Positions 13,220 through 50,532 of a DNA stretch of 64,000 bases are shown piece after piece. Origin of the DNA: Ditylenchus dipsaci. Its lineage: Eukaryota > Nematoda > Chromadorea > Rhabditida > Anguinidae. Position 1 is the first letter of the stretch; each line of letters begins with the position of its first letter. A program made the position numbers and the translations under genes. The notes beneath the pieces are model-generated. The model saw only the letters and a list, made by a program, of their open reading frames with translations, was not told where the DNA came from and ran no database searches. The stretch lies in the NCBI GenBank assembly GCA_004194705.1, contig SADC01001189.1, forward strand, positions 1 to 64,000, given 5' to 3'.

Positions 13220-15976
13220 TTAAGTAAGGTTGTACTTGCTGAAGAATACTATGCTGTTGAGATTCTTCTGGAACAGGGTCCAGTTTCCAGGGCTCATTGA
13301 GTTGGTTTTGACACGTTGCAAAATGGTCTGGCATCTCTTTTGAGTGAAGAACTAAATTTTTATTCTTTTTTTCAATATAAAAGTAACTTTTAATGTTTTT
13401 GGAAAAAAATTGCGACTTATTTTTTCTAAGCGTTCTAAAATTACTTTTCGTGTTAAAAAGAGAAAACATTTCAAAATATATTTTTGATCACGTTGTTTTA
13501 TCCGAAAAAAAATCAAATTGCCAACTTTAGCTGCCCATACGTGCGAGACGACTTAAAAATGGTACTAATTCGGTTTACACCCCACCCTCATTTTTTATTT
13601 TTTTTTGCATTTTCTATTTTTGGTCGTGTTCTTGTTTTTTTTGTGAGCTCGGAAATTTTGTCTTCATTGTTCTGTCTCATATACTGTGTCCATCTTTTTT
13701 GTTGTAGGAATGGAAGAACTCCGCGACTTCAATTTGGCTAAGCTCTACGACAAACTGCTCAATTGGTCCGATGACGAATTTCTGCGATGGCTTCAATCTC
13801 TCAAGCTCCTCCATTCTTCTCGCACCTGTGCATGTGGTTCCAAAATGGGATGGATCAGATTGTTGAACTGTATGTATGTGAATAAATAAAATATGTTTGT
13901 CGCAACATAGAAACCGATAAACCCAAAAACTGGGGTGGGGTGTAAACCGAATTAGTACCTTAAAAATTTCTTAGAATCACGTTACTAAGTGAAGTTGGCA
14001 TTGTCGAAAATACAATTCTACAAACGATTGTTAAAATAATTTGACCACTTTGTAGTTAAAGTGGCCTTTGTAGGTATAACTGAACCCTCAAAAAGATGGT
14101 CAAGGAGATGTGAATGGGGTAGGGGGCAATTGATAACCCATCCACTTCGGACCTATCTTGTCTAGTTAACTATGAAGGGTGTATATATACTACACTTTTG
14201 CTTGTAGCATAACTAATAGATGGTCTGTACTGCTGGGTAGGTGGTTAGAGAGAAAGTAGTTTCTCATGTCTCTGCCTTGTTTATTTTCCTATTTTCAATG
14301 CAAAAATATCTCTTTTGCAATATTGGAAAATTCTCCATCCCATTTTTTGCGATACTCAAGTGAATGTTAAAGAAAGAGTCAAATTCACACTAATTTTTAT
14401 GTGAGCTTCATCTAACTCGCCTCGTTCATCATGTGGTACATTTGCAGAGTTGTCGCAGTGGTCCCTTTGCCTTTAGCTTTCATTGAGTTTACTTTTGCCG
14501 TCACCTACATATTATAAGTGTAAGCAAAAACGAAGACTTTTGGTTTCTGACCTGTTTCATAAAAGGGGTTAGGTTATTGCCGGCAATTGTAGCTACTGGA
14601 GACATGAAAGCCATGGCACCGTCTAAACTGCCAAAATCTTTAGTGATCCCACTCATTAAACCAAGGCCAGTTTGCATTTGAGTCATGGTTAGCGAGTTCA
14701 TTACTGTGTTCATAGCATCTGAAATTAGATTGTGCTTAAATTTTTACAAAACTAAATGCCAGCTTGAACTTGACAACTACATGAATAACTTGTTGGAAAA
14801 TTCCGAAATTTATCAGACAATTAAAAAAATATTTATTTCCCTATTCTTTGAAATATTCTAGAATTTCAATTTCCGACATATTTATTCGCTAAATTACTGA
14901 TTTAGCCCGTACACACTCATTTCATCACAACTCCTTTAATCCCATTTTGATTTCAACTTAGCTTTTTAACAGGATACTCGATTTTTGTTGGTAAAAGTAG
15001 GATTTCTTACACAACAGGATTCCTTACAAATTTTAACATTTTCTCTTTTCCATGGTACTTTTGTATGGGATGGTAAATTAACCTCCTGTAATTCCTCCCT
15101 CTGGTAATTTCCCCCTGGAAAAATTTTGAGGTCACAGGTTCGAATCCTGGTGGTAGCAGACATTATTTTTTCCTAAAAAATGGGTATCCCCCTCCAGAAT
15201 CCAAAATTTTAGATTAGTTTAGATTAGTTGAAATTAATAAGTAAAATTATTGTACCCTACCCAGAATCATGTATTGAACACGATTTGATAATGTTAAAAC
15301 AGCGTTTTGACTTGCAAGAATCCCAGCTCTGGTTTAGTTTTGTGTCCCGTTGGGTATCCAGGTGGCGCCCAGGTTTATGCACCTTATCGGTACTCATGTG
15401 GAAGTGCCTAGGTAGAAGTACGCAGGCAGTGGTTTTCAGCTGGTGATTTACAAGAGAAAGTACGCAAGTGTGTTAGATTTTTTAACAGATCATTTCGTAA
15501 AACTTTTGTTGTAAAAGTACAACAAAATTATGATAAAACTATCAAGAACTATCTTAACCGCAAACTGTCTTATGTCCAGTAAAAAATAATCAATTGTAAT
15601 GGCAGACGAAAAATACAATACAAATTTATGAATTAAGCGCAACATATTATCAGTGAGGGTCAAACACATGTCAAAAAAAATTTCAACTAAAAAAAATTAC
15701 CATTAGCCATTTCTGTCGTGGTTTTACCAGCTAAGAAACCAGCAAGAATTAAGTCACATAGCTAAACATTTTTTTAAGTTTCACAAAAGTTAAAAAGCAA
15801 ACCAATACCGAGCTCAGTTGTGAGTCGGTCAGAAAAGCAGAGATATAGTTCTTAATTTTGTTGATAGTCTTTTGCTTGTAGGGAGGAATAGCTGCTGTGG
15901 TCTGACATTTTATGTCTTCAGGTATAAGAAGCAATGAAAATAAGCTAAGAAACAAGACAAATGTCAGCTGGTTCAT
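13220..15976 (-). CDS. Secreted protein of unknown function, paralogue 1 of 4
   Basis: I do not recognise this family. Five exons: 15809-15976, 15701-15761, 14552-14718, 14421-14504 and 13220-13351, together 612 nt and 203 residues, with no frameshift. Exon 1 gives a signal peptide (FVLFLSLFSLLLI) and the family motif PPYKQKTINKIK. Exon 2 encodes LCD...TEMAN. Exon 3 is a methionine-rich, probably helical segment starting DAM and containing MNSLT and NNLTPF. Exon 4 contains GKGTTATT and HMMN. Exon 5 contains ILQRVK and the motif PGNWTLF, and ends FFSKYNLT. Intron 4 has a GC donor (GAG then GCGAGT) instead of GT; read without splicing, the frame stops after two codons. Intron 4 also carries a Merlin-type element and a Y RNA gene. 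No catalytic residues are evident; small helical secreted protein is as far as I can go. Confidence 0.8.
13561..13959. mobile_element. Merlin/ISXO2-type element with N-terminal transposase piece
   Basis: Terminal inverted repeats start GGTACTAATTCGGTTTACAC (about 28 bp, nearly identical at both ends). The octamer TTAAAAAT is duplicated exactly at 13553-13560 and 13960-13967. Inside is a short frame resembling the N-terminal metal-binding part of ISXO2-type transposases. Length 399 bp, too short for a full transposase, so it is defective. It sits in intron 4 of paralogue 1. Confidence 0.8.
13710..13889 (+). pseudogene. ISXO2-like transposase, N-terminal fragment
   Basis: The 59-residue frame follows a TTGTAG acceptor. 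It reads FNLAKLYDKLLNWSDDEF, then RWLQSLKLLHSSRTCACGSK: a tryptophan-rich lead-in followed by a Cys-X-Cys pair and Lys-Met, as in the zinc-ribbon start of Merlin/ISXO2 transposases. It then stops. None of the DDE core is present. The matching C-terminal type of fragment occurs in a different element at 55.7 kb. Confidence 0.65.
14090..14158 (-). ncRNA. Y RNA gene, copy A
   Basis: The transcript starts AGATAGGTCCGAAG and ends GACCATCTTTTT. The ends pair (AGAU/AUCU and GGUC/GACC, one bulged A). Next comes a bulged C and GA/UU, which is the Ro60-binding signature of metazoan Y RNAs. GUGGAUGGG then pairs with CCCAUUCAC. The loop opens with UUAUC, as in vertebrate and nematode Y/stem-bulge RNAs. 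Five T residues form the Pol III terminator. Y RNAs bind Ro60 and act in RNA quality control and DNA replication initiation. This copy lies in intron 4 of paralogue 1, same strand. Confidence 0.88.
14181..14230 (-). promoter_or_regulatory. Type-3 Pol III promoter of Y RNA copy A
   Basis: GTATATATAC at 14181-14190 lies 23-32 bases upstream of the RNA start, the usual TATA position for U6/Y-type genes. A block at about 14201-14230 (minus strand CTATTAGTTATGCTACAAG) sits at the expected place of a proximal sequence element. It is almost identical in all three Y RNA copies. Confidence 0.75.
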
Positions 15977-17303: not shown

Positions 17304-17459
17304 CGGCTACCAGACAATTTCCATTATTTTTGGAAATTGTCGCCCGACATTTTCCAATATTTTTTCGGTAAATTTGGGCGAAACGACCAAATCGACCGAA
17401 AAAATATTGGAAAATGTCGTGCGACATTTTCCAAAAATATTGGAAGTTGTCTGGTAGCC
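17304..17459. repeat. Foldback element
   Basis: The left arm GGCTACCAGACAATTTCC mirrors the right arm GGAAGTTGTCTGGTAGCC. An inner inverted pair is built on CGACATTTTCCAATATTTT. Confidence 0.75.
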
Positions 17460-17651
17460 CTAATAACTATTTATAGGTGCAAACACGATAAAGGGACTGA
17501 AAGGCGCATTTTGCACTTTTGTTTCTGTTACATCAGATTGATTGTCCAAAGAAAAATGGGGATTACCGAGCCAACGTGCTGTCATCACACTACGCCTCTT
17601 GGGAAGAGTCTAAGAGAAAAGAGACATGACAATTATCATCCCACCAATTTT

Positions 17652-18428: not shown

Positions 18429-21230
18429 TTAAACAAGATTGTATCTGCTAAAGAAAATGACAGTTCCTAAGCATTTGTTGAAAAGTGTCCAGTTGCCAGG
18501 TGTCATTGAGTTAGACTTGACCCGTTGCAGTATAGTTCCGACTCGAGTGACTGTAGCAAACTAAAAAAACTTTTAATTAAAATTTGAAAGCAAACTAAAA
18601 TTTGACCTGGTTCATCATCATGTACATTGACTCAGTCTGGGCTGTTACTCCTTTGCCATTTGCAGCCATTTGAGCATTTTTAGCAAGAACCTGAAAAAAT
18701 GTTAAATTATGCATTTAGTGTAGAGATGTAAAGAAATCTTATTAGTAAGAGTTTCCGGCCTCGTAAATGTTATATTTGAATCTGATAAGGGTCCCCTGTG
18801 TTTTTTTTCAATTTTTTGTTACGCGTGTATTTTTTGTTTTATTTAGCAAATTGGTACGCAAAGTTTGCGTCGCAAACATCTTGTTGAGAATAAAAAGGCG
18901 ATTTTACAGTGTTATCATAACCACAATGAACAGGGAGGACCAAGCTGTTTTTCATCAAAAAACAACAGGGCATATTTTGAAACCTGATTGTTCACGAGAA
19001 CCCAGTCAAGGATATCTCGAAAAGTCTTTTTCGCGCTAGTTTTAAGTATAAAAGTTTCTAATACACTCAACTATCGAAGATACGGCACGTAAGAAAGGCC
19101 CTAAAAAAATTTATTTCTCATAAAATTAAGCTTATTGAATTTTGATGATTAGGGTCTCGAAGGGGCTGATTTTCTAAGAAAAGCGAGAATCGGCCTATTA
19201 CCTTCAAATTTGTCTTCGAGGATAGTGATCTTAGTAACTTGGCTTTTCTCCAAAGTAGCAGAGAAAAAATCTTACTTGGTTTAAAAAAGGCGTCAAATTG
19301 TTGCTAGCAACCGTGGTCACCGCAGGTAAAAAAGTCATCGCATTGCTCAAGCTGCCGAATGAGTTGGTTATGCAAGTGATAATACTTAGGCCGCTCATCA
19401 TTTGGCTGAAAGTCAGTGAATTCATCACCACGTTCATCGCATCTAAACTTTTTGAATAGATATTTTTGATTGATAAAAAAATCGGGCGCTACCGGAGTAT
19501 ACCCCCCCCCCCCAAATGAAATTTTTTTCAAAGTGTTTCCAAACACCCTATATCGACCTAAAATTGCCACAGAAGTTCGAAAAAGGCATTATTTTTGTGT
19601 TCTGGTCAATAAAAAATTGAGTTTCGGGACCACCCAAAAATACCTATTTTGACCGTTTTTGAAGGGATATTATGGTTATGGTTAGAGGCTTGGTAGGTTA
19701 GAGATGCGCGCACTCACTTAGACATAATTTCTTTTAGACATAATTTCGAGCAAGACTCTTGAACAAAAATGCATTTAGAGGCTCTTTTTGCCCAGCTCCA
19801 GTGACCAAAACATGCCAAAACAGGCAAATGTTCGAAATTTCAAAATGTCCAAAGCCCAATTTTTTATTAACCAGAACTTTAAAAAAAATGTCTTTTTGAA
19901 CTCCTGAGGCAATTTTAGGACGATATTGAGTGTTTGGAAAAACTTTAAAAAAAATTTCACTCAGGGGGGAGGGGATACTCCGGTAGGGTCAAAAATTGTA
20001 TAACAAACTTGTAGCCATTACACTGGTGTTTTTTAAAGCCAAAACGTCGGCCACAGCTTTATCACAAACCTGAAAAAAGTTTCAAAATAAATCTATGTTG
20101 AAGTAAATCACTTTGGCGCTAGTGGAGGATCGGTTTCCATTTTTTTCTTTAAAAAAATCAATAGGGATGACAAAGGCATATTTTTGGGAAAATAACAACA
20201 GGTGGACCAAGGCAAAGATGGGAACCGATTCTCCACACTTTTACATTGTCGATCTACACCTGAAGGCCACAAATTTTTTGTTGTCACCATTTTGCATCTT
20301 AGATGCTGGACTGCAAAGTAAGCTATTAAGAAGCTACATCTGTTTGAATAAATTTAGGCGAAAATGCTCAGGAACACACTCAGGTCAACACTCGGTCGTG
20401 TGTCAACCTGAGTGCGGTTCTAAGCATTTTGAGCCAATATTTTTAATCAAATTCAGCTTGTGAATAACTCATTTGAAGGCCTGTATCTCAGCTATAAGAC
20501 GGTATTAACAGAACATTTTTTGATAGGAGAAAAAAATCATAGTCTTTGCTGCGGGCATCTGCGTTGACACTCATTGTAAATGTGCCTTCACTCTTGCATT
20601 TTACTATTTACCGTATTTCCTCTAATAACTCACCCGGGTGAGTTATTTTTCGGATCGCTGAAAATTGGAAAAATTTGAGGTCGATCTCGAGATTTTTGGG
20701 TTAAAATATTAAATTTAAAAACTGGAATCGGTAGAGCTCGTAGGAATTAAGAAAACGCAAAAAACAGCTTTGCAAAATATTTGTTCCGAGCTGAGATATA
20801 GGCCCTCAAAGTTGAGGGGGGTGAGTTATTAGAGCAGGGTGAGTTATTAGAGGAAATACGGTAGTTGACTATACTAGTTCCCGACAGTTAAAATTTTGCT
20901 AATTTTAATACGAGCCGGTCACTTATTTTTTATTCCAAAATTATTTGAAAAATTACTTTTTTTGATTTTTTTAAAGATTTTTATCTCTTGATTGAGAGGT
21001 TTTTATGAACTTTTTAAAGATCAGGTCATAGAAGAGCCAGAATTGACGATTTATTATCATTTTACAAATTTAAGAAAAAGTACCATGCTAAGTTGAGCAT
21101 CAGTAATAAAGACTGATAAGTAAGCCTTGATTTTGTTAATGGTTTTTTGTTTGTAGGGAGGGTTAACAGCATTTGCTACAAGCATAATTGAAAAGAAGCA
21201 AACAAACAGCAGGCACTTGTAGCCTTTCAT
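18429..21230 (-). CDS. Secreted protein of unknown function, paralogue 2 of 4
   Basis: Five exons: 21084-21230, 20009-20069, 19276-19442, 18607-18690 and 18429-18560; 591 nt, 196 residues, intact. The start chosen (MKG) matches paralogue 3; a longer frame with an upstream Met exists. The leader LLFVCFFSIMLVANA ends just before VNPPYKQKTINKIK. Exon 4 (VLAKNAQMAANGKGVTAQT) and exon 5 (ending FFSRYNLV) are nearly identical to paralogue 3, so these two are the most recent duplicates. Exon 5 has a cysteine in NKC that copies 1 and 4 lack. Intron 2 is filled by a foldback (19485-19995); intron 1 holds two more. Confidence 0.8.
19485..19995. repeat. Palindromic element in paralogue 2 intron 2
   Basis: The left end CTACCGGAGTATACCCCCC mirrors the right end GGGGATACTCCGGTAGGG, followed inward by matching arms (AAATTTTTTTCAAAGTGTTT; TATCGACCTAAAATTGCC). 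The middle has GAGATGCGCGCACTCACTTA and CAGCTCCAGTGACCAAAAC, which recur at 38.2, 38.6, 41.3 and 47.8 kb. The element fills nearly the whole intron. Confidence 0.75.
20122..20238. repeat. Foldback element in paralogue 2 intron 1
   Basis: The left arm GTGGAGGATCGGTTTCCAT mirrors the right arm ATGGGAACCGATTCTCCAC. The inner arms are AT-rich. Confidence 0.65.
20612..20863. repeat. CTCTAATA-family palindromic element in paralogue 2 intron 1
   Basis: The ends TACCGTATTTCCTCTAATAA and TTATTAGAGGAAATACGGTA are perfect inverted repeats. The interior contains AACTCACCCGGGTGAGTTAT, itself palindromic. Confidence 0.8.
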
Positions 21231-22996: not shown

Positions 22997-25900
22997 TTAA
23001 ACAAGATTGTATTTGCTGAAAAAAATTATGGTTCCTATGCATTTGTTGAAAAGTGTCCAATTGCCAGGTGTCATTGAGTTAGTCTTGACACGTTGCAAAA
23101 TGGTTCCTACTCGAGTGATGGTAGCAAACTAAACATACAATTCCCTTTAAATTACAAAACAAGCCAAAATTTGACCTGGTTCATCATCATGTACATTGAC
23201 TCAGTTTTAGCCGTTATCCCTTTGCCATTTGATGCCATTTGAGCGTTTTTAGCAAGAACCTGCAAAAAAATATTGTGCAATTATAAGTTTTGCGAGGTGA
23301 GTGTAATTTGCAAAATTCTAAACTAGACCCGTGGCGCAATATACACCAGTAAGACAAGGAAAATACCCGATAAAGCTTATTTTTAACCCGTTTTCTCTCA
23401 CATATAACAAATTGTCGGCCCCAGTGTTTGAAATCATTATTTTTTTGTATCACGTAAACCTAAATTGTGATTAAAACTTTGATCTTTCGAAATCATTGAA
23501 AAAATCATTGGTGGAGACTCCGTTGTAGACGTAGGGAAACTTTTCATACAGCTACCCTTGATGGGAGCGACCGCCATATAACTGATTGTTCGACAGCTAG
23601 CTGAATATCCCAATGTTGCTTGAGCAAATTTCGCCCACCATATTCGTCACCGATCAGGCGTTGAAAAAGGCCGAGTCCCGTACCAGATCTGACATTGGGA
23701 ATAAGCCGCAGACCGAGGTGACCAATACTCTGCTAATTGTAAAGCGAGAAGGATACCAGCTGGATCCCTGCACCTCATGTAAAAGTGAGACCAGCTCAAG
23801 AAGTTTGGCTTGGACTTTAGGGATGGAAAGGAGACAGCTACCTAATCTGAGAAGAAAGAAGTCAAAGATCTAATTGTAGAAGCTAACTGTCGTCACTCTG
23901 ATATTACCTTTGGACCAGGTTCCGATAAGGTAATAACATCATTGGCCAGAAAAATTGAAATTTAATTTAATAGATAACATTAATAGAAAACGTAATAGAT
24001 AACAACATAACAGCCATTTGTAGGTTGACCAGTTTTCAGCCCCCTTAAAAGAAAAAAGAATTTCTTACCTCACGTTTTGGAAATTTTCAGCAAAGAAAAA
24101 AAAAAAGCAAAAAAAAAGCCCACGTACTAGAAAATTTTAACAAAAAAATTGACGACCAAAATTAAAGTTGCTCGAAAATTGTCAGGAAGCACAACAAGCA
24201 AAAAAAGCAAAAGATAAAATAACAGGGTCTTTTGCAATATAACAGAAATGCCTTTTAAAGGGCCATTGCCGTATCCGACAACGGTTGTCCCTGCCAATTC
24301 AAATTTTTTACCTGATCGTTGAACTTATGTAGGGACTTTTCAACTTGGTTTCTATCAAAACTATACCTAAAATTAAATTTAAGGCCTTGTTTTGTTAGAA
24401 ACCAAGCAGAAACATCTGTACACAAGTTGAATGATTGGGCGGAAAAATTTGAATTGGCGGGGACAATTCAAAACAGGTGGCAATGGCCCTTTAATAAATG
24501 CCCTTCTTCAAAAAATATATTTTAAAATGATTGATTTACTACTTTGCCTTTTATCCAAGTATTCGGCTCTATTTCATAATGGAGTTTTTTGAATTGGTCC
24601 CCATGTAGGCTTTAGACTTAGGCGAGAGTAGACCAGCGTGGGTTAAGATGAGTCTAAGATTTGCTTTAACATACGCTGGCCTGTTCTTGACAGAGTCTTA
24701 ACCCTAAAAAGTCCAAAAAACGACAAGGGGGCCTAGGCAAAACTCTCTTTGCATTGTGTAATACAGCCAAGAGTTTGTTTTTGTTTTTTCGGTATTTTTC
24801 ATATTTGACGAACAATAAAAATTTACTTGATTTAAAAAAGGTGTCAAATTATTGCCGGCAACTGCAGTCACAGGAGGTAAAAATTTCATCGCATTGCTCA
24901 TGCTGCCGAATGCATTGGTTAAGCAGGTCATAATACTCATACCACTCATCATTTGGTTCGTGGTCAGCGAATTCATCACCACATCCATCACATCTACACT
25001 TTTTAAATACAGTCCACTCTTCATAAACCAGCACACCGGGGGTGGTATTGAGATCGGTTAGTAGAGTCAGTAGACCAAGAGTTACTGTTAATCCTACTTG
25101 CACTTGAAACGAGTTGAGTAAAGTTTTGGATCAAGAGTTATTCGCGATCCTACTCAAGCAGTGAGTGGTTTTTGATACGAGTAGAGTTCAGTTCCACTTG
25201 CCAAACTAGACTTCCAATAGCCGAGCTCGGTTACCACTCGTCCAACTCACGTTCTACTTCCTTAACTCCAGTTTTACGAGCAAACTCGATTTTTTTGGGT
25301 TGGGTTAAGTTCTATTCGCCGAACTCGAATTCTACTCGCCCAAGTCGAGTTGTACTCGCTCAACACGATTTCTACTGCCAAGCTTTACGAGTGATTTTTA
25401 ATCCGAGTAGAGTTGAGTTCTACTTGCTGCAATCCAGTTCTACTAGCCCGATTCGAGTTCTACTCGTTCAGTTCGGCTTTCTACTCGCAAGCTTTACTAG
25501 TTTACTCGAAAATTTTGGAACAATTTGAGTTCTACTCGCCCAACTTGACTTTCTACTCGCGAGTTTCACGAGTAAACACAGAGAGTTTTGACTCTAGTAG
25601 AGAACTCGAGTTCGGTGAGTAGAAATCGAAGTGAGCAAGTAGAACTCGAGTTGCGCGAGTGGTAACCGAGTTTGGCTATTAGAAGTCGAGTTTGGCGAGT
25701 GGAATTGAAATCTACTCGGATCAAAAATTACTCATAGCTCGAGTAGGATCGCGAGTAACTTTTGATCTAAAATTCTACTCGTATGTATAAAACCAGTTGA
25801 GTAGATCAAAAGTAATTCGTGATCTTTGAACCTACTTGGCCGGTCTGAAATACGTCGAGTAGATCATGAATTTCTTTTGATCCAAAACTCTACTAATTTA

Positions 25901-28226: not shown

Positions 28227-30030
28227 ATGAAAAAAGAGGTGGTCATCTTTTTAACTATTTTGTCTGCCTTTTATTGTCTTGAAGAAAACCTTCTTAGAGA
28301 AACACTAAAAACTGATAAATCACAACAAGAAGAATGGAAGGGACAGGTCGCAGGGCACAAAGGTTTGGCGGTTTAATGAAACTTTTCATTCAATAAAAAA
28401 TATTCACTGTCAGGAGCTATTGTGCAGCTGGCCAATGGGCATTTGCTGAAACAAGTCAATCAATATGAAACAAATGTTTATCCTAAAGTTTCACAAGATG
28501 AACAAATACGCAAATATTTACCAACTTTCTATGGTATCAGCAACACAAATGGAAAAGGTAACTCCATATTTATGCATTTATTTCACAAAAAACCACTAGA
28601 GCTGTAAAGTTAAACCATATTTTTGAATATCGTTGAAACAGCATTTAAAATTATAAAGAGTATTTTTATGGCACAAAGTAGAGCTAAAAAATTTACAGTA
28701 CCGTATTTCCTCTAATAACTCACCCGGGTGGATCTCTGGATCTCTGAAAAACAGAAAAATTTCGAGTCAATCTCAAGACTTTTGGGTAAAAATTCAGTTA
28801 GTGGTAGTTAATAAAATTTAATAAACAGCTTTGTAAAATAGTTTTCATGAGGGGAGATATAGGTGCTCGAAGTACGGTATTTTTGAATTGTTTTCAATTC
28901 AAGCTCGAAATTTTTATTTTTGTCCGTTATGAAACCGGTGTTTGACCCAGGTAGAATATTTTTTGCCGTTTTGTTCGCGGATTCGGATTCAGCGGGAAAT
29001 TCTAGTTGTGCTCCTGAACTCAAAATTTCACAATTTGTAGAAAGGGTAATAAATATCAAGCAATTTTTAGCATTTTTGGAAATGGAAAACCTACTAGCCA
29101 ATTTTGCCGATGAAAGTGCTCTAGGAACCATTGATGTAAAAATGGGTCATAGGTTCTGTCCTATAATTTTCTGTCAGAACAGAATTTATACAACTAAATA
29201 TTTTAAGGACTTTTCTGGAAAACGAAAAGAACGATCCAACATTCAGACCCTCATTGTTTAAAGACAAGTTTGGGCTTGATTATTCCATACAGAAGTTACA
29301 AGGCAAGCCAATGACCAAATACAATTTTATGAAACTGCGGGACACTTTGTCTTCTACTAAAAGCCTTGGCTTCAGAATAGATGCTTCAAAGGTTAGAAAA
29401 AAATTCTGACTATATTAGTGAGATTCTCATTATAGTTGCCTGGAGAAGCTGCCAACAATCAGTATGGAAAACTTAAAAGTCCTGGAGATATTCTGGCTAC
29501 ATTTGTGCGCTTATTTGGAGCAGAAAGCAGCAATATAAGAGCTCAGTTAGTAGATCGGCTGAAAGAAATGCGTGATGGTGTAGAAAATTCTACTTTCTTC
29601 CAAACCCACGAGGTTCTTTTTGGATTTAATACAGCCCTTTCAAAAATGCTACAATGAAATATTTTCAAAATCTTATATGTTCCTTGTATTGTATCTTAGA
29701 GTAATTTTTGCAAAAAAACACTAAAATTAGCACTTTATCCACATTTCACACGATATATACATATATTTGAGGTGATTGGCAGCAGCCTTCTAATCGCCTA
29801 CGACAATCAGAATGCAACTGCTTGGATCATAGATTTTGGAAAGACAGTTCCGCTAGAAAAGGGGTTTCAAATTGACCATCGCTCAGACTGGCTGGATGGC
29901 AACCATGAAGATGGCTACTTGAAAGGAATGGACAATTTGATCGAAGTAAAGTTTTGAGTATTGGCCATAACTAAATTCGAAATTTTAGCTTCTGGAATTT
30001 GGCTTTATCAGCAATGGCTCATTGACTTAA
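28227..30030 (+). CDS. Inositol polyphosphate kinase (IPK family) with N-terminal hydrophobic leader
   Basis: IPK-family kinases phosphorylate soluble inositol phosphates (IP3 3-kinase, IPMK or IP6K types). Seven exons: 28227-28362, 28414-28557, 29071-29152, 29208-29391, 29436-29612, 29772-29945 and 29989-30030; 939 nt, 312 residues, frame intact. Order of motifs: QVAGHKG near residue 42, TIDVKMGHRTF (the PxxxDxKMG catalytic motif with Pro replaced), SLGFRI, GSSLLIAYD, then IIDFGKT (metal-binding DFG-like Asp), and GNHEDGYLKGMDNLI. The first 20 residues, KKEVVIFLTILSAFYC, look like a signal peptide, unusual for a family that is cytosolic or nuclear. Subfamily not settled. AATAAA lies at 30081-30086. 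CAAAG just before the ATG may be a trans-splice or 5' UTR acceptor. Confidence 0.88.
28699..28790. repeat. Partial CTCTAATA-family element in kinase intron 2
   Basis: Only one end (TACCGTATTTCCTCTAATAA) and the adjoining CTCACCCGGGTG are clear. The opposite end is degraded. Confidence 0.55.
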
Positions 30031-30392: not shown

Positions 30393-30470
30393 ACACAAGT
30401 GCTTTTACAACAAAAAATATTTTCTTAGATATTCCTCTTCCACATAGCAACGTTTTTTAACAACCCCTCT

Positions 30471-30538
30471 AAAAAGATGGTCAAGGAGATGTGAATGGGG
30501 TAAGTGGACATGATAACCCATCCACTTCGGACCTATCT
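30471..30538 (-). ncRNA. Y RNA gene, copy B
   Basis: Same two stems as copy A: AGAU-GGUC with GACC-AUCU around the bulged C and GA/UU, then GUGGAUGGG with CCCAUUCAC. The loop differs (UUAUCAUGUCCACUUA) while UUAUC is kept, which is the pattern expected from selection on structure. TTTTT closes the gene. It lies 1.09 kb from the Ro60 start codon, on the opposite strand. Being the most divergent of the three, it may be a distinct Y RNA species. Confidence 0.85.
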
Positions 30539-30560
30539 TGCCTAGTTAGTGATGAAGGGT

Positions 30561-30610
30561 GTATATATACCACACTTTTGTTTGTAGCACAACTAATAGA
30601 TGGTCTGGAC
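30561..30610 (-). promoter_or_regulatory. Type-3 Pol III promoter of Y RNA copy B
   Basis: TATA motif GTATATATAC at 30561-30570 and proximal-element-like block at 30581-30610, spaced exactly as in copies A and C. Substitutions relative to them are scattered between the blocks. Confidence 0.7.
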
Positions 30611-30669
30611 TGCAGGGTAAACGGTTAAAGACATGACACTACGGTCAAAAAAAATTTGGCTGAACTCTC

Positions 30670-30738
30670 AAAAAGATGGTCAAGGAGATGTGAATGGGGT
30701 AGGGGATCATTGATAACCCATCCACTTCGGACCTATCT
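30670..30738 (-). ncRNA. Y RNA gene, copy C
   Basis: Stems and UUAUC are identical to copy A. The loop differs by a few bases (AAUGAUCCCC instead of AAUUGCCCCC). The five-T terminator is at 30670-30674. The RNA 5' end is 890 bases from the Ro60 ATG, and the two genes are divergent. Similarity to copy A continues about 230 bases further upstream, so A and C come from duplication of a segment of roughly 300 bases. Confidence 0.88.
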
Positions 30739-30760
30739 TGTCTAGTTAAGTATGAAGGGT

Positions 30761-30810
30761 GTATATATACTACACTTTTGCTTGTAGCATAACTAATAGA
30801 TGGTCTGTAG
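30761..30810 (-). promoter_or_regulatory. Type-3 Pol III promoter of Y RNA copy C
   Basis: GTATATATAC at 30761-30770, and the CTATTAGTTATGCTACAAG block on the minus strand at about 30781-30800, match copy A exactly in sequence and distance. Confidence 0.75.
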
Positions 30811-31627
30811 TGCTGGGTAGGTGGTTAGAGAGAAAGTAGTCTCTCATGTCTCTGCCTTGTTTATTTCCCTATTTCAATGCAAAAATATCTCTTTTGCAAT
30901 ATTGGGAAATTCTCCATCGCATTTGTTTTCGCAATATACAAGTGATTTTTCAAAAAAAAAAGAGTTTGATTCACTCTGTCTTGTTTCGAAATAGTTTTCC
31001 ATGTATTTGATAAAGAAATTTATGGGAGAAAGCCAAATGATATTTCTTTACATAAAAGTTAGAAAAAAGAGTTATTAATTATCCAGGGACTCCCGCATTC
31101 TTTTGATTAAAACTCAATCAGTCTAAGATGTTTCATCATTTTTCAATTGATCAATAATTATCGTAATACTATTTTAGTTCTTTCTGACTTATTAAAGCTG
31201 ACTGTTACTCGTTTGCTCTCATTAATTTCGTCAGACTTTTAGGATTCTTGAAAATTTTGTATTTGTTTTTCGCAAACTTTTCCACATTGTCAAGAAAATT
31301 TTGCCCTAACTAAAAATAGTGGCCATGGTTATTTTCGGTTATCGGCACCGCCAATATTTAAAACAATTGTATACTAATCATGGTGATTATGGTGGAAATG
31401 CTAACCACAATCACCTTAATCGCATAATCTGCATTTAAAAACATATCTTTTCCGAACACTTATGTGCGTTCAGTATCCAAAAAAATATCAAAAATAGCGG
31501 GAGTGCTGATGACCGAAGAGTACCAAATTTTGCCCTAACCAAAAACAGAACTGGGGTTATTTAGTCAAAACATAATTCCTTTGACGTTTTTTGAAGAGAG
31601 ATTTCAAACCTTTTTTCAGCAATAATT
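30811..31627. other. Upstream region of Ro60, shared with the divergent Y RNA genes
   Basis: The first 150 bases belong to the duplicated Y RNA upstream segment. The remainder is AT-rich. ACCTTTTTTCAG ends 8 bases before the Ro60 ATG and looks like a 3' splice acceptor, suggesting a 5' UTR intron or spliced-leader addition. Confidence 0.5.
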
Positions 31628-34119
31628 ATGTCTGCTAACAACGACGATTTGATCTCTAACATCGAGCAAGGAGAGCGCCTTTTGAGTCAACTTCGTCTTA
31701 GTAACTTTCACATTACCCAGCAGGGCCCTTCCACACCTTCAAATGAGTTGCCCAGACAGATGAAGCAGGTTCGAGACGATGAGGTTAGTTTGCTTACAAA
31801 TAAACTCATCTTAAGTGGCATGGTTTTGCAGGTTCGCAATAATGCCGGAGGTTTTGTGTTAAAGTGAGTGATGAGACTCTAATTCGTCGTTTTCTAATTC
31901 TGGGGACTACAAACGCTACTTACTATGTCACAGAAAAAGAGGCCACTGATAAGTGTCTGGATGATTTGACTAGAATAATCAAACAAGGTAGGTCAAATTA
32001 GGCTTTCATTAGGCCTAAAATTTATTTTCGATTCTTTATAAAACCCAAATATTTAGGAAAAGGAATCCAGATTCTCAACGAAATTTTAAAAATCTCAGCT
32101 GCGGGAAGTGCCCCTAAGCAGAATCCTCTGCTATATGCTCTAGCTTTGTGCGCCCGCTACAACATCAAAGACAGACGCAAGTTGCTCGGAAAAATTGCCA
32201 GCACGACCGAGAAGCCAACTGCAGATTACTTGGAAAGACTTTTTGATGAATACATTCTGTCCCTCCAGCAAGCATCTTTAATGGCTGTTAATGAAGTTTG
32301 TTGTATTGATACTTTACGTTTTAAGTAACCCGATAATCATTTTTGGTTCAGGTGTGCAACATTCCAACCCACCTGTTTGCATTCGTCAAGTGCGCTGACA
32401 TGTTCTCAAAAAAGTTTTCAAACACCAAAGGTTGGGGACGAGGCATGAAAAAGGCTGTTAGCGAGTGGTGAGTAATTTGACCCTTTTCAAGGTCTCACCC
32501 CAACTTATTTGTTCAAAATTACTTTCTAGGTACCTAAGCCGCAGCCCAGACCAACTAGCTATGCATATCACCAAGTACAAGAATCGTGAAGGGTACACCC
32601 ACCGAGATATGCTTCGTCTTTCTCACCCCACGCCGAGCACAATCATCCTAGCAAAAATGCTCAGAATGACTTAAAAAACTCTTTAGTCTATGATCAAATA
32701 TTCTGCTTTGCATGCACTGGTAAATCTACTGCCCAATTATTATTCACTGACAAGAAAATAAATTGCAGGAGCTCTTGACGAGGAAAAGCGAAAGTTGGAT
32801 GATGAGCCATTAGCCAAGCGCAGTCGCTACAACTTAACACCGGAAATGATAGCTGAAGAGAATAGTTCCACTGCTCTGCAGTTTCTTAGAGGCTTCCTTC
32901 AAGTGTCTAAGCTGACTGGAAGGACGAAGAGAAATGCGCTAGTATGATAAAGAAATATGGTAATTTTCGATTTGAGGCTTGAGAATTATAATTTTTTGCT
33001 AGGTTTGGTCCGAGAACATATACCTACAGATTTGCTCAACTCTTTGCCGGTCTGGGCGGCACTACTTGAAGCAATGCCTATGACTTCTATGATCAGAAAC
33101 TTGTCGAAGATGTCAGCCATTGGACTTATTGATGGATCTAAGCAAGGAAATGAGTGAGTCACTTAATGCTGATCATAAATGCTCAGTCATTCAAAATTAT
33201 ATTTTAAAATCGTGCTTAAGAATGTACGAGAACATGGTGATCAGCAACCTGGTGGACGAAGATCGTCTCCATCGTGCCAAAATCCATCCTATTTCTGTTC
33301 TACTAGCCTCAGCTACCTATTCTGCTGGTCATGGATTAAAAGGCAGTTTAAAGTGGACAGTTAATGAGAAAATTAAGCAAGCTTTGGACAAAGCCTTTAT
33401 ACTAGCTTTTAAAAATGTCATACCTACAAACCAGCGCTACTGCTTGGCTCTGGATGTTTCTGGTTATGTAATGAATTTAATAGACAGTTTAGTAATTCTA
33501 TTTTCTTTCAAGGCAGTATGAGTAGTTCAATCAATGGCGGGGCTCTGTCTTGCCGCGATGCCTCAGCTGCCATGTCTGCAGTCTTCTTGAGAACTGAGCC
33601 AAAAGTAATATTTTTAAAATTTCATTTTCGGTAGAAACAACATTAAATGCTTTTAGGTAGAGTGCATGGCATTTTGCGACACATTTGTTCCCTTGCCTTT
33701 TACCAAATCAATGTCAATAGAAGATATGGTGCGTTATACAGACGGATTACCTTTCGGCTCCACCGACTGCGCCCAGCCAATGATTTGGGCTTTAGAGAAC
33801 CAAAAAGAGTTTGATGTGTTCATTGTGTTCACAGATTGCGAAACTTGGTGTGGAGAGGTTAGTTAGCTTCTTAGTTTGGAATTTTTTTTTGTAAAATTTA
33901 TAAAAACTTCATGCATGTAAATTTTAGAAACATCCTTTTGAAGCCCTGAAGGAGTATCGCCAACAAATGAACCTGCCTGAATCTAAGCTTGTGGTTATGG
34001 CAATGACATCTACTGAATTTACTATTGCTGACCCATCCGACGCTGGCATGTTGGATGTTTGCGGGTTGGATGCCTCAGTGCCTGAGCTTGTGCGCAATTT
34101 TGTGCTTGGACATATTTAA
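31628..34119 (+). CDS. Ro60 (TROVE domain, RNA-binding protein)
   Basis: Ro60 is the ring-shaped protein that binds Y RNAs and misfolded small RNAs. Eleven exons: 31628-31783, 31832-31987, 32057-32295, 32352-32467, 32530-32719, 32769-32959, 33003-33153, 33221-33462, 33513-33604, 33657-33857 and 33928-34119. The TROVE part includes PTHLFAFVKCA, GWGRGMKKAV, THRDMLRLSHP and LVREHIP. The von Willebrand A-like part carries a complete metal site: DVSGSMS, GSTDC and FTDCETW. C-terminus is ADPSDAGMLDVCG...NFVLGHI. Exons 2, 5 and 6 are each one base short of the length demanded by flanking intron phases, with frame breaks near 31863, 32640 and 32925. Corrected length is about 642 residues, longer than the human protein (538), partly from an insertion rich in Lys and Glu. 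AATAAA overlaps the stop at 34120-34125. Confidence 0.92.
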
Positions 34120-34170
34120 AATAAATATTTATTGTAAATAATTTAAGCTCTACATTACATTTGCCTTTAA

Positions 34171-34532: not shown

Positions 34533-34580
34533 TTAAATAAATATTCCAAAAAGTGTTTCAAACTTGTAACAAATCAAGTA

Positions 34581-37261
34581 TTAGGATAAATTATATTTGT
34601 CAAAATGGATAACTTCGCCAAAGTCTTGAACTACTAACGTCCAGTTTCCAGGAGTCATTGCATCATTTTTGACTCTTTGTAGAATGGTTGTAGTTCTTTG
34701 TAATGTCAAGAACTAAAAATCATAATAATAAAACTGTGATTTCCCAGTATTCATAAGATTTTTTTAATCTAATATGGAGCACTTGAGCCTGAGCCCCACA
34801 TTCACCTGAAAACACCACACTCCCCTCTTCTCGGTCAAAACAGCTTGGGAGAGCAAGGCATTTTTTTTGACTGCACTATTTTCCCCCTGAAGACTCAAAA
34901 GACATTTTTAATTATGTTTATACAAAAAAATTATTGTTATAAAAAATTATCAAAAAAAATTGCCTTGATCCCCCAAGCTGATTTGGCTGGGAGTGGTCTA
35001 AGATTCAATTTAGCCTCATATTACTTTTTTCAATGCTGCAGGTTCAACCGGCTTCATTTTTAAGCCCCGAAATTTTTCTATACTTATTTGAATGGTACCA
35101 TACCTTAATTGAATTGAAGATGTAGTACCATTCGGAATAGTACCAAAATTTTCTGTTTAAATGCAATAGACTGTAGCCAGCACCCTAGTTTTGGCTTTAA
35201 AAATGTAGCTCTAAAAAAAGACCGCGGATCTTTTAGAGACTGTTACTTTATTGAAATCAATACAGTATCTGATTATTTCCGTGTCATTTTGTGCAAATTT
35301 TAAAGGTTTTTTTTCCGTATGAATGACAAAAATGACAGATCCTTATAAAAATTGAGTAATAACTAAAAAATACCGAGTTAAACATGTGGAACATTTGCTT
35401 GGACACAGCAGTATTTCCTTTACTACTGGCTTGCATTTCAATTATTTTATTTCTTGTCTAAACCACAAAAGTTTTTTCTAAGCATTAGTTTGAAGCTTAC
35501 TTGATTGTAAAAAGGCATCAAATTATTAGAAGCAATAACCACCACTGGATCCAAAATGATTGCTTCAAAATTGGAAAGACCACCAAAATCTCTGTTTAAG
35601 TAGTTGAAAAGCTGGACCCCTACTGTCATTTGACTTGCTGTCAGCGAGTTCATGATCTCGTTTTTGACCTCTGATATTAATTTATATTAAAAATTTATAA
35701 AAAATGTTCATTTACAATATTTCTCCTGCTTGTGTTGAATTTTATAGTCTAGATGACGCGTAACTGGTTAATTATGTCGAGCTGTGTTTTTTAGAAATAC
35801 AAGTTGTTAGACATAGAGCAGGACGACTTCTTACAAAAGGAGGCACATTTTCACGAAAATAGGACACCTTTTCACTAAAATAGGGCATTTTTCCACAAAA
35901 GGGGGCACTTTTTCGCCTTTTTGACTAAAGCGAAACAAAGGGAGCACATTTTCACGTAAAGTGGGCACTTTTTCGCCAAAAGGGGGCATTTTTACGTATC
36001 GTCCTATTTTTAAATAATAGATATGATATGTATAGTTTCTAGCGGATTCACAGTATGACATTTTTTAAACTATATTTATAAAGTGTGCAAGTAAAACCGG
36101 GTCGTGGTCAAAATTCAGCTCAACATTTAAACGAGGGCTGAAAAAAAATGAACAAAAGAGAGAAGATACCTTAGGCCAAAGCGAGGGATGAACCCACAAG
36201 TTTTCAAGTGGTACGCCATGATTGTCATACTGAACCTGATCGCATAGTAAACTGAAATGCCGCCAGGAATCGTGCTTTCTAACCATAAAAAACTTTATTT
36301 CGTTTGAGAAATTTGAGATAAATCACCACTTATTTGTCAAGTCAGGAACCTTTGAAATTTCAATTTTTGACTTTCTTCATATCATAGCTTTGTGTCCACG
36401 AAATATATAGCTCAATGTTGGTGACAAAAAAAACGTAAAAATTAGCGGTTTTTTTAAACTAAATACAGCAATAGTTCATCATGAAATTGTGACAAAATAT
36501 GCAAAATAAGGTGAAGCACAAATTTTCCATAACTTTTTTAAAATTTGTCTTCGACACCGGATTCGTGTTTAGCGTGGTCAATTTGCTTATAAAGCTGACA
36601 ATTTTCAATTTCAACATTGTTTGAAAATTTCGAATTCTTCTCAAGACAATAAACATTCAAATTTGAAAAAGAAATATTCATTGTCTTGAGAGAAATTTAA
36701 AATTTGTAAGCATTTTAAGCAAATCGAATCCGGTCTGAGGATTGAAGGTTTAGACAGTGGAAAAAAAGCTATAGAAAATTCGTGCTACGACTTATTTTCG
36801 CATATTTTGTCACGATTTCATGATGAACTATCGCTGTTTTTAGTTTCGAAAAAACCGCAATATTTTAAGCTTTCTTTTGGTCATCAGCATTTAGATATAT
36901 ATTTCGTGTACACAGAGTGAGCTCGGTTCTTGAGGTGGCGGTTAAACAAGGTTTGACTGTAGTAAAATTATAAATATTATTCATCAACCTACCATCCAAA
37001 ATTCCCGAAGTATTTTTGCCTGCCTGCACATCTGTTACAACAATGTCGACACACTAAAAACCAACTTTGTTTGTTTATATTATATTTTAAAAGCAACTCT
37101 ACCGCACTTAGCTGACTGTCAGTTATAAATGTGGTCAAATAGGCCTTGATTTTATTGATACTCTTTTGTTTATATGGAGGATTAGCAGTTTCTGTGGCAA
37201 TAAGGCAACAAAAGAAAAATAACCATATCAAAATGTTTAAAAGATTTTCTACCTTAAACAT
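34581..37261 (-). CDS. Secreted protein of unknown function, paralogue 4 of 4
   Basis: Five exons: 37103-37261, 36993-37053, 35501-35670, 35374-35457 and 34581-34712; 606 nt, 201 residues, intact. The leader ILIWLFFFCCLIATETA precedes NPPYKQKSINKIK. This is the most divergent copy: exon 3 has one extra codon and starts EVKNEIMNSLT, exon 4 lacks the AKNAQMA core (MQASSKGNTAV instead), but PGNWTL and YNL at the end are kept. Introns 1 and 3 are only 49 and 43 bases; intron 2 (1.3 kb) is filled by a large palindrome and a tandem repeat. Ro60 and the kinase gene separate it from the other three copies. Confidence 0.78.
35825..36000. repeat. Degenerate tandem repeat of about 20 bp
   Basis: Eight or nine imperfect copies of a unit like GGGGGCACTTTTTCGCCAAA, in paralogue 4 intron 2. 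It creates a spurious minus-strand frame repeating CP-LFVK/CPIFVK. Confidence 0.65.
36385..36915. repeat. Large foldback element in paralogue 4 intron 2
   Basis: The outer arms (CCACGAAATATATAGC and GATATATATTTCGTG), middle arms (GCAATAGTTCATCATGAAAT and its complement at 36.82 kb) and inner arms (TCTCAAGACAATAAACATTC and complement) nest symmetrically over some 530 bases. This suggests repeated insertion at the same symmetrical site, or one long palindrome. Confidence 0.7.
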
Positions 37262-43300: not shown

Positions 43301-46300
43301 ACATAGCCATCATTTTTCATTTTTAGCCTGGTCTAGTTAACCTAGTTAGTACTGCTGAGTTTCACAACAGATGAGTCTTTGAGCCCCGAGGTAGGCTTAA
43401 ATGACCGTTTTTAAATCAGATCTGCTAACAGAAAAGTAAAATATAAGTGAGATTCTTATTCTACCTTGACATTTGAGAAAAGGCGGGATTCTAAGATACA
43501 TTTTTGACAGCAAAATTTTCTTTCCGTTCCAGCCAAGCCCTTCTTTTTAATTGAATTTGGGATGGTTGGTCTTTTTTTACCTTTTAATTTATAGTTCCTT
43601 TCCAATGTTTCTAAAATTAGGATTCTTCAATGCTTATAAATAGATTTTTCTATCTTTTAACCTGTGATTTTGTAGTCAAATGACCGAGTCACTTCGCTAG
43701 TTTCTTCTATTTTATTATCTTCTTTGACATCTTGCATATTATCAGTCTTAAATATAGCAAATATTTGATTTGAAACTGTTGAAGCTTACCTTTAGAGTGC
43801 GCGTATACCCTAAATTTTTATGAAAATGAATAACTTTTCGTGAAAGGTTGGTCATTACGGAAAAATCAATCTTTTTTCAAATGATTTTACAAGTGTTTTC
43901 AGTTTTTTCTTTTCTTTTCTATGAAGATCTATTCTATATACCAAAAGAGTAAACTTAGGGCTATGCAATGGTATACTAGAAATAAATTTTCATTTTTCTT
44001 TGATGTCTAAACAGCTATTCAGAAAAAAGGGTGGTAAATTTTTCCTGCACCCGTCATTAAACATGGTTAATTTCACCCCTAATTGCAAACATTACACAAA
44101 ACATTGGAAAGATAGGCTAGAATTACAAATGTTGTCAATTTAATAGACTTTTGAAAAAGAGCTCGTAAAATGTAGAAAAACGGCTCTAGTCAAGAAAAAG
44201 CGGCTTTTTTGTTTACCTTGGTCTCCGCTGTTAATTTTTTGAAACAATTAATTTTTTATAAACATAGCCTGTTTATATAATTTTTTTATTTACTCTTGTG
44301 CAACACAAGTAATTATGGAAAATATATACACTGAGCTATTTTATGAGCCTTTTAAAAAAAAATCGGCGCAATTTTTGCATTGGCTTTACAATTGTGTCCA
44401 AAGAAGAATTTCGCAACACTAAAATTGCAAGAAGCCTGTCTTTCGTTTCATACAATTGTAATATTTTGGGTTGGATGGGGCGGGTTTTTCACTAATTTGT
44501 AATCATGTTTAAACGACTCCTAAGTAATTTTTATATGCTTAAAACGATGAAAAACTTATTTCTGACATTTTTTCACACAAAAATGGATTAAAAAAAAAAT
44601 TTTTTTGGTCAAAATTCAACTTTTTGCCGTGGTCCCCAAAGCAATCCAAGCTGAAAGGGTGATACCTTTTTTTATCGTTTTAAGCATATAAAAATTACTT
44701 AGGAGTCGTTTTAACACTATTTTTAAATAAGTGAAAAACACCCCCCCCCCACCCAATAAGTTCACATAAATTACATAATGAGTCAAAAGATTCACTTTTG
44801 AACGGCCATAAATTTTTGTCTAAGTCGAAGTGCGAAATTCTGTAAACGCAGAACAACTTAATTTTCGTTAAAGGGGGGGGTGTATTTCCTTTCGTATCTG
44901 GTCCCGCATGGAAATCGGTTTAATTCAAACTAAACCACATTTATAGGTTGCAGGTTCGAGTCTATCTGGGTGTGAACTTTTTTTTTCACATTTTTGAGGG
45001 ATTGAGCTTAACTCACACTGAGTGTCAGACTTATAAATACTAATCAATCGATCGTGGACATTTCCAGGATTGCTTTTTTTGGTCAAAAATCATATTGAAT
45101 TTCATTTTGAAGTAAAAGAAAGTCAGCCATAAGCCATATGCTTCGATTTATATTGCTTCTAGCTGTTTTATTTTTCTTACAGTGATTAGCAATTTTCTAT
45201 ACTCATGAATGCACTAGGTACTTGACAAAAAAATTCTATACCGAAGTTTTATTTACCAAAGAAAAGGTATGATTGAATAAGGTCCCCTGCCTATGAAGCA
45301 TCCTTATCACCTCCCCCCCCCCTAGCTTAGATATATATGTGGAATCCTTCCTGATAATTTTGCTGCGTTCGCAAGACTATTAGAATCATTTTGATATCCA
45401 ACTAGTGAATAAAATGTGAAAAAAAGAAAGTTCACACCCAGAGAGACTCGAACCTGCAACCTATAAATGTGGTTTAATTTAAATTAAAATGATTTCCATG
45501 CGGGACCAGATACGGAAAGGAAATACACCCCCCTTTAAAAGAATCCGATATATAAGTGTGAAAACACTATTTTTCTTGGCGGTCTTTGTGGTTTCCGTCC
45601 GATCTGCGGATGATCTCTGGATCGGTAAGGACAAACTACAAGGGTGTCGCGAGCGGCCACGGCCACAGCTCTGAATTGGAAAAAAGGGGAATGGAGGGAT
45701 ATTTGATCCCACTCCTTTGGATCCGCAGAGATCCGCAGTAGGCACCAAACCCCGACTGGGAAGTGAATAATGTTGTAGACATCACTTGCGTCGAAGACGC
45801 AACAGGGGAACCAAGCCAAAATCGTGTTTTTCCCATAATTAAATATTGTTATAAAAATAAAGTCGTTTTACGTTTAGAGAATTACGGAACTCTGCCTGGG
45901 CAAAAAATTATGACCCTTGAAAAGTGTTCGAATTTCTTGACTCAGCCTGTAGAAAACGTTTGCAATGAGGAGTGAAATTAGCTATTATACGCCTAAAATT
46001 GTTTATATGCGTCAAGAGTGACGGTGTTTGAAAAAGTAGCAACTAGTGAGTGACTAACTTCAAGTGGTCATCGCTCAACTTTCATTAAACCATTTTTTTA
46101 GATCTTTGATGACTTGTTTACGTACTTCGTGTTCAAGTTAAACTTCAAGTTCAGATCAAATTCGAAAATCCGAACATGAAGTAGAACACGAACTTGAGAT
46201 ACGTGAACAAGCCATGGCAGATTCAAGATTTCCAATACTCAGGTCACAAGATTAGGACCAAAAGAAATGATTTTTTTCGTCATGGCCAGATACTTAGTCA

Positions 46301-50206: not shown

Positions 50207-50532
50207 TTAGTTTGCTACATATGGGTTTTCTAAGTAATTTCGTCGGTTTTATCATATACAAGTTAATACTCAAATTGATGCCAGAGAGAAGGGCTACATT
50301 TTGCGTATAAGGTTGTAAATGACCATGTTTGCAAATTTCACTAGAAAACCGAAATTTCCGGAATCTTGGATTATTTTTCAGAATTTTTGATTTTTTAGTA
50401 AAATTTGCAAACATGGTCATTTACAACCTTATACGCAAAATGTAGCCCTTCTCTCTGGCATCAATTTGAGTATTAACTTGTATATGATAAAACCGACGAA
50501 ATTACTTAGAAAACCCACATGTAGCAAACTAA
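50207..50532. repeat. Almost perfect hairpin, arms of about 135 bp
   Basis: The left arm (TTAGTTTGCTACATATGGGT to ATGTTTGCAAATTT) and the right arm are complementary with only a handful of differences, around a loop near 50345-50400. This is the best-preserved palindrome in the window and hence probably the youngest. It has no coding content. Confidence 0.85.

Follow-up and report, generated by a model that had tools for sequence, protein, structure and literature searches.

Results

Stem-bulge RNA genes next to a nematode Ro60 gene

The window, by which we mean the whole stretch of 64,000 nucleotides analyzed here, carries genes for nematode stem-bulge RNAs (sbRNAs), homologues of Y RNAs as judged from family scores and predicted structure, in the immediate vicinity of the Ro60 gene of Ditylenchus dipsaci. 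With considerable confidence, we regard these units as genuine sbRNA genes equipped with their own RNA polymerase III (pol III) promoters, whose linkage to Ro60 is ancestral to a duplication within this genome, and whose products are likely to serve both with Ro60 and La and in DNA replication. The positions of the features on which this view rests are compiled in Table 1.

Table 1. Position of the sbRNA units, their promoter elements and the Ro60 gene in the window.
Feature	Position	Strand	Basis or remark
Ro60 gene, ATG to stop	31628..34119	plus	PF05731, PF25045, PDB match, D. dipsaci record
Possible trans-splice acceptor TTTTTTCAG	31611..31619	plus	just before the Ro60 ATG; read by eye from the acceptor consensus
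sbRNA unit A	30670..30739	minus	~69-nt predicted RNA and T5 terminator; RF01656, fold, pairing check
TATATA box, unit A	30764..30769	minus	30 bases upstream; spacing shared with most over-cut-off U6 genes
PSE-like core CTCTAAC, unit A	30824..30830	minus	-91
sbRNA unit B	30471..30539	minus	~68-nt predicted RNA and T5 terminator; RF01656, fold, pairing check
TATATA box, unit B	30564..30569	minus	-30
PSE-like core CTTTAAC, unit B	30624..30630	minus	-91
sbRNA unit C	14090..14159	minus	T5, promoter motifs; RF01656 42.5 bits, C21-matching flanks
TATATA box, unit C	14184..14189	minus	-30
PSE-like core CTCTAAC, unit C	14244..14250	minus	-91

The original prediction had described two Y RNA genes on the minus strand, each with ends pairing through a helix with one bulged C, a second stem of 9 bp, a loop opening with UUAUC and a T5 terminator, 890 and 1090 bases from the Ro60 ATG. 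All of these elements are present in units A and B, whose first bases lie 889 and 1089 bases from the ATG; a third unit, C, situated 17.5 kb from it, had been overlooked. All three score above the curated cut-off of 38 bits of the nematode Rfam model RF01656 (ceN72-3_ceN74-2), namely unit A with 42.9 bits (match 30739-30674, E 1.7e-5), unit B with 41.9 bits (30539-30475, E 3.1e-5) and unit C with 42.5 bits. Our own model R1 gave 102.8 bits for unit A, a value to be read with the fact that unit A was itself used to build R1. The designation as Y RNA genes thus holds at the level of the Y RNA/sbRNA superfamily and fails for the vertebrate Y RNA family, whose model RF00019 gave the window units 26.1, 25.9 and 25.2 bits against a cut-off of 38. 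Over the genome, RF00019 yielded no match at E up to 1 among the best 50 of 37007 candidates scored, in a search that matched 4 of 14 control genomes, below the cut-off; we rejected membership in the vertebrate family on these scores.

In units A and B, the pairing check recovers an outer helix AAGAU/AUCUU followed by GGUC/GACC and one bulged C. Two alternatives exist for the two pairs beside the bulge: the GA/UU pairing originally envisaged can form, yet both the minimum free energy (MFE) fold and the Rfam alignment pair GA with a UC a few bases off and leave UU unpaired. The upper stem of both units comprises 9 bp, GUGGAUGGG/CCCAUUCAC; using the definition of the sbRNA upper stem and motif given in an excerpt of PMC4450293, it is found with its motif in each window unit and in five of the six units that we located in the genome, the sixth having a 1-base deletion in the stem. 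The loop, 17-18 nt in the window units, opens with UUAUC, and the 3' end is T5. Measured against dinucleotide shuffles, the three window units fold somewhat better than shuffled sequence, a modest excess (2, 2 and 4 of 200 shuffles were as good; z -2.4 to -3.0, with -2.43 for unit A and -2.84 for unit B). A motif descriptor, composed after the units had been seen, matched three times in the window and never in 200 Markov-1 sequences of 64 kb.

Elsewhere in the window, microRNA-model matches (and one to rliI) lie at 958-1094, 7772-7912, 17313-17522, 44465-44757 and 50309-50430; all are below the cut-off, several occur on both strands, as one would expect of inverted-repeat elements, and we discarded them.

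Conservation and promoters of the six units

Alignment of the six units reveals invariant columns in 96% of the 28 positions of the 5' arm, 94% of the 31 positions of the 3' arm with its T run, 93% of 15 in the TATA region, 72% of 46 in the PSE-like stretch, and 45% of 11 in the loop. Judged from this alignment, invariant arms around a freer loop are what constraint on a structured RNA would leave behind. The lower stem with its bulged C is identical in all six. Because paired positions hardly vary, the six copies yield no covariation; relative to the Rfam consensus, one upper-stem pair is altered on both sides with pairing kept (by eye). The invariance of 12-18% in the flanks should not be read as neutral, because tandem units have flanks of which some lack homology to one another.

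As a reference for the upstream DNA of the six sbRNA units, we used 15 U6 genes of the same genome that score over the cut-off. TATATA starts at -30 in all six units; 12 of the 15 U6 genes have it at a start between -28 and -35, and it is absent from the other three (L022, L024, L025), which may be promoterless copies. The strict core C[TC]NTA[AG]C stands at -91 in every sbRNA unit and at -89 to -91 in five U6 genes, for which the chance probability (at least five of 15) is about 4e-11, and in seven of the remaining ten U6 genes, inspection by eye shows core variants at this position. Outside these elements, the upstream DNA of the two gene classes bears no likeness by eye. By these motifs, the sbRNA upstream regions look like snRNA-type pol III promoters. 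Their elements place the predicted 5' end at AAGAUAGG; the predicted RNAs would measure 68-70 nt and start AAGAUAGGUCC. The terminator is T5 in five units and T4 in one (C21 unit 43094). Among U6-model matches below the cut-off, L027-L029 and possibly more share a GAGCTGAAAAAA-like sequence with the look, by eye, of a dispersed repeat.

The Ro60 gene of the window

The neighbor of units A and B is, by domain content and database matches, the Ro60 gene of D. dipsaci. We placed ten exons by eye; the deposited model splits the first exon once more. The exon-joined protein contains both the TROVE domain (PF05731, 3.9e-51) and the Ro60 vWA domain (PF25045, 3.4e-74), and matches the RO60 chain 9nen_A of the PDB with an E value of 9.1e-121. 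Compared with a D. dipsaci record of 578 residues, it is identical at 576 of 643 positions. The 65 gaps and 2 mismatches (an X among the latter) all fall where the gene seems to suffer 1-base frame breaks, three in number (near 31862, 32630 and 32920), which the deposited model steps around. Each break coincides with a short single-base run, and as the PacBio RSII assembly is error-prone, these breaks are probably assembly errors. The equivalent of H187, a residue on which Y RNA binding depends, is present, the residues RLSH being aligned to the RLSH that ends at residue 187 of 9nen_A; the mutant H187S is described in an excerpt of PMC11277228 as being without mouse Y3 RNA binding.

Just beyond the sbRNA pair, one of five ORFs tried, at 29700-29957 on the plus strand, encodes part of an inositol polyphosphate kinase (PF03770, 1.4e-11). 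Ro60 is furthermore flanked on both sides by members of a small protein family, all on the minus strand in the window (14531-14734, 19261-19461, 24707-25057, 35450-35686) and some of them situated between unit C and the array. The family recurs on both sides of Ro60 in the second locus described below (C21, 47142-47381 and a fragment at 44073-44144); three ORFs tried had no Pfam match.

A second, diverged locus

When 434 bases around the sbRNA pair were searched against the genome as DNA, four matches came back, in two places only: this contig (C1164) and a second contig, C21. Each contig holds three units, and those on C21 form a tandem array with starts at 42891, 43094 and 43296. Two of these three exceed the RF01656 cut-off (42.8 and 39.9 bits), which makes five of six genome-wide; unit 43296, with its 1-base deletion in the upper stem, was detected by the DNA match and by R1. 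An opposite-strand R1 match inside the C21 array was weak (12.6 bits, E 0.4) and was set aside. Searching the genome with RF01656 gave the same five matches at E up to 0.001 and up to 10 (best 41 of 5870 candidates), while among 14 control genomes none matched at E 0.001 and five did at E 10, none above the cut-off. Divergent sbRNAs or a CeY-like RNA elsewhere in the genome may have escaped this search.

The 3' part of a Ro60 gene lies at C21 44984-45989, 1.7 kb past the last unit start, with 81% DNA identity to the window gene. Within C21:20001-60000, tblastn with the D. dipsaci record recovered its residues 338-578 and no part of the preceding sequence; frame breaks are apparent in two exons, and the H187 region is absent. 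Our count of two Ro60 loci covers what DNA similarity around the RNA units and tblastn brought to light, the latter applied to the window, to C21:20001-60000 and to C1164:64001-74000; among the best 120 of 3049 protein matches, at least one was named as D. dipsaci.

Collinearity between the two loci extends over the array, the 3' part of Ro60 and downstream DNA, with window blocks 30462-30898, 33174-34153, 34533-35013 and 35112-35681 corresponding to C21 42813-47382 and unmatched stretches in between. No match in C21 was found for window 30899-31627, the region from the array to the Ro60 ATG. One of the two sets of matches was filtered, with 14 of 42 dropped as repeats, and the second was unfiltered. 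Block 35112-35681 had no further DNA match in the genome among the best 40 of 449 candidates scored, and has protein-level relatives elsewhere within the window. Across 606 in-frame nucleotides, the two Ro60 pieces differ with a dN of 0.046 and a dS of 0.42 (12, 6 and 46 differences by codon position), values which indicate that constraint acted on the Ro60 protein while most of these differences accumulated, without telling the two branches apart. On the dS value and the truncated Ro60, we rejected the view that C21 is an allelic haplotig.

Since C21 carries both the array and the 3' part of Ro60, we conclude from the sequence comparison that the sbRNA array and Ro60 were already neighbors before the duplication. 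Unit C has flanks (13997-14080 and 14437-14617) with counterparts on either side of the C21 array, and has therefore probably been displaced from this array. Neither the 64-kb window nor C21:1-70000 contains N bases; both linkages therefore reside within gap-free sequence, which rules out a scaffolding artefact and leaves room for a contig misjoin. The assembly that we analyzed comprises 226,978,389 bases in 1359 contigs; the published D. dipsaci draft, generated by PacBio RSII/CANU, measures 227.2 Mb in 1394 scaffolds with 537 of 982 BUSCOs complete, and the haploid genome size estimated by flow cytometry is 160-170 Mb (PMC6929663).

Discussion

A model for the sbRNA-Ro60 locus

The data lend themselves to the following model. 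Pol III would transcribe each unit from its own upstream promoter, with the PSE-like core at -91 and the TATA box at -30, and transcription would stop at the T5 run, yielding RNAs of about 69 nt whose ends are paired by the bulged-C helix. The array points away from the Ro60 gene. A duplication of the array-Ro60 pairing gave rise to the C21 locus, where the 5' part of Ro60 is gone and the RNA units are largely intact. In the RNA, Ro60 could bind the lower stem and La the U tail; the upper stem together with UUAUC would serve DNA replication, as in the sbRNAs of Caenorhabditis elegans. Binding of D. dipsaci sbRNAs by Ro60 is plausible because the lower stem is unchanged in all six units and the window Ro60 keeps the H187 equivalent. 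With respect to replication, excerpts of PMC4450293 report that the initiation step of DNA replication can be supported in vitro by sbRNAs from several nematode species, and that C. elegans suffers defects in S phase, development and viability when these RNAs are inactivated. The window units possess both elements on which this role depends, the upper stem and UUAUC. Collectively, the observations behind the original prediction are confirmed, and its interpretation is partly supported: the RNA genes adjoin Ro60 and do so again at a diverged second locus, whereas the status of the RNAs as partners of the Ro60 protein in vivo is one that we infer.

Why the genes are neighbors

A functionless linkage, in which the array landed beside Ro60 once and the short distance and a later segmental duplication kept both together, is in our estimation slightly more probable than improbable. 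An accidental placement that was simply never undone is the most economical account, and the C21 locus, having come from the duplication of one block, adds no independent case. In C. elegans, Ro60 on chromosome V does without a CeY gene nearby, the latter being on chromosome IV (excerpt of PMC8477234), and in a comparison of eight nematode species sbRNAs are reported to form tandem arrays in most of them and to have no recognizable syntenic orthologues, a lack that the authors ascribe to divergence and rearrangement (excerpt of PMC5745555). Against such an account weighs the consideration that a landing within about 1 kb of the one named partner protein in an assembly of 227 Mb would be improbable a priori. 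Of the six units, moreover, five are no more than about 2.1 kb from the Ro60 gene or its remnant, the sixth being 17.5 kb away, and the pairing persisted while dS reached 0.42.

It is rather unlikely, by our assessment, that the units act exclusively in DNA replication and never meet Ro60, so that the identity of the neighboring gene would be irrelevant. The conserved upper stem and UUAUC of the D. dipsaci units fit this notion, as does the excerpt of PMC4726728, in which C. elegans ROP-1 immunoprecipitates contained CeY only and no sbRNA was identified in them. The same excerpt, however, reports that CeN72 binds ROP-1 in a gel shift, and a replication-only function leaves the letter-for-letter retention of the bulged-C lower stem in all six units to be accounted for.

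To a functional module, in which the divergent region of about 0.8 kb from the sbRNA promoters to Ro60 co-regulates the sbRNAs and Ro60, thereby matching the two components of the Ro particle, in a manner reminiscent of the bacterial rsr-yrl operons, we give a low probability. In its favor, the divergent arrangement is kept in both copies of the locus; loss of Ro60 proteins lowers the amount of their Y RNAs (excerpt of PMC4726728); and ageing C. elegans generally show increasing levels of rop-1 mRNA and sbRNAs, while oxidative stress raises rop-1 mRNA together with four sbRNAs (excerpt of PMC8477234). Nevertheless, sbRNAs and the Ro60 mRNA use different polymerases, every sbRNA unit has its own promoter, the C21 units persist without an intact Ro60, and window 30899-31627, from the array to the Ro60 ATG, is unmatched in C21. 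The stronger proposition of an animal Ro-particle locus, with sbRNAs kept beside Ro60 as an inherited co-regulated module that arose independently of bacterial rsr-yrl, strikes us as doubtful.

That we are looking at defunct copies or at a short interspersed repeat instead of genes is highly improbable, for in spite of the 1-base upper-stem deletion of C21 43296 and the T4 of C21 43094, the arms are conserved around a free loop and the promoter motifs occur in all six; an origin as a repeat or SINE was rejected on the number of copies found, six in two places.

Comparison with known systems

As genuine sbRNA genes, the D. dipsaci units share with the nematode family RF01656, named after CeN72-3 and CeN74-2, a score above the cut-off, the bulged-C lower stem, the 9-bp upper stem with a central UG-CA, the UUAUC loop start, the T run, the tandem array and an upstream promoter that combines a PSE-like with a GTATA element. 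CeN74-2 is an sbRNA, and the C. elegans sbRNA promoter is described as a motif of its own with PSEB-like and GTATA elements, the genes ending at T runs (excerpt of PMC2527325). The D. dipsaci units differ from this family by their short loop in the window, by the position of the array beside Ro60 and by their number, six having been found here as opposed to at least 18 plus CeY in C. elegans (excerpt of PMC4726728).

With vertebrate Y RNAs (RF00019), the units have in common the two-stem plan and one bulged C in the Ro60-binding helix, whereas they score 25-26 bits against 38 and are about 69 nt long as compared with the 83-112 nt given for the human RNAs in the excerpted literature. Human RO60 is located on chromosome 1, away from the Y cluster on 7q36. 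The clustering of the human Y genes on chromosome 7q36 is covered by the excerpt of PMC4726728.

The C. elegans CeY/ROP-1 pair involves an RNA of the homologous superfamily and the orthologous protein; in contrast to D. dipsaci, yrn-1 (CeY) is on chromosome IV and rop-1 on V (excerpt of PMC8477234), and CeY lacks the conserved upper-stem motif that the D. dipsaci units keep (excerpt of PMC4450293). In bacteria, a Ro60-family protein gene and Y RNA genes likewise stand side by side, as in the Salmonella rsr-yrlBA-rtcBA operon (excerpt of PMC7790460). There, however, they form one operon, whereas D. dipsaci possesses divergent, separate genes with their own promoters and RNAs of the animal type. 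Among the literature matches listed, a scope outside which the main sbRNA survey (Boria et al., 2010) lies, animal Y RNA or sbRNA genes beside Ro60 are not described, in agreement with the earlier remark that such linkage is unfamiliar in animals. By the sequence tests applied here, we are dealing with real genes from a known RNA family, in an arrangement not found described in animals and older than one duplication in its genome.

On whether nematode sbRNAs are partners of Ro60 or solely replication RNAs, C. elegans gives a divided answer, with CeY in the Ro particle and the sbRNAs in replication. D. dipsaci, whose detected sbRNA genes stand beside Ro60, is a natural place to test the sbRNA-Ro60 partnership. 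If the linkage proved common to other tylenchids, this would be a case of an animal genome keeping Ro60 together with its RNA family, in a manner that we otherwise encountered solely in bacteria.
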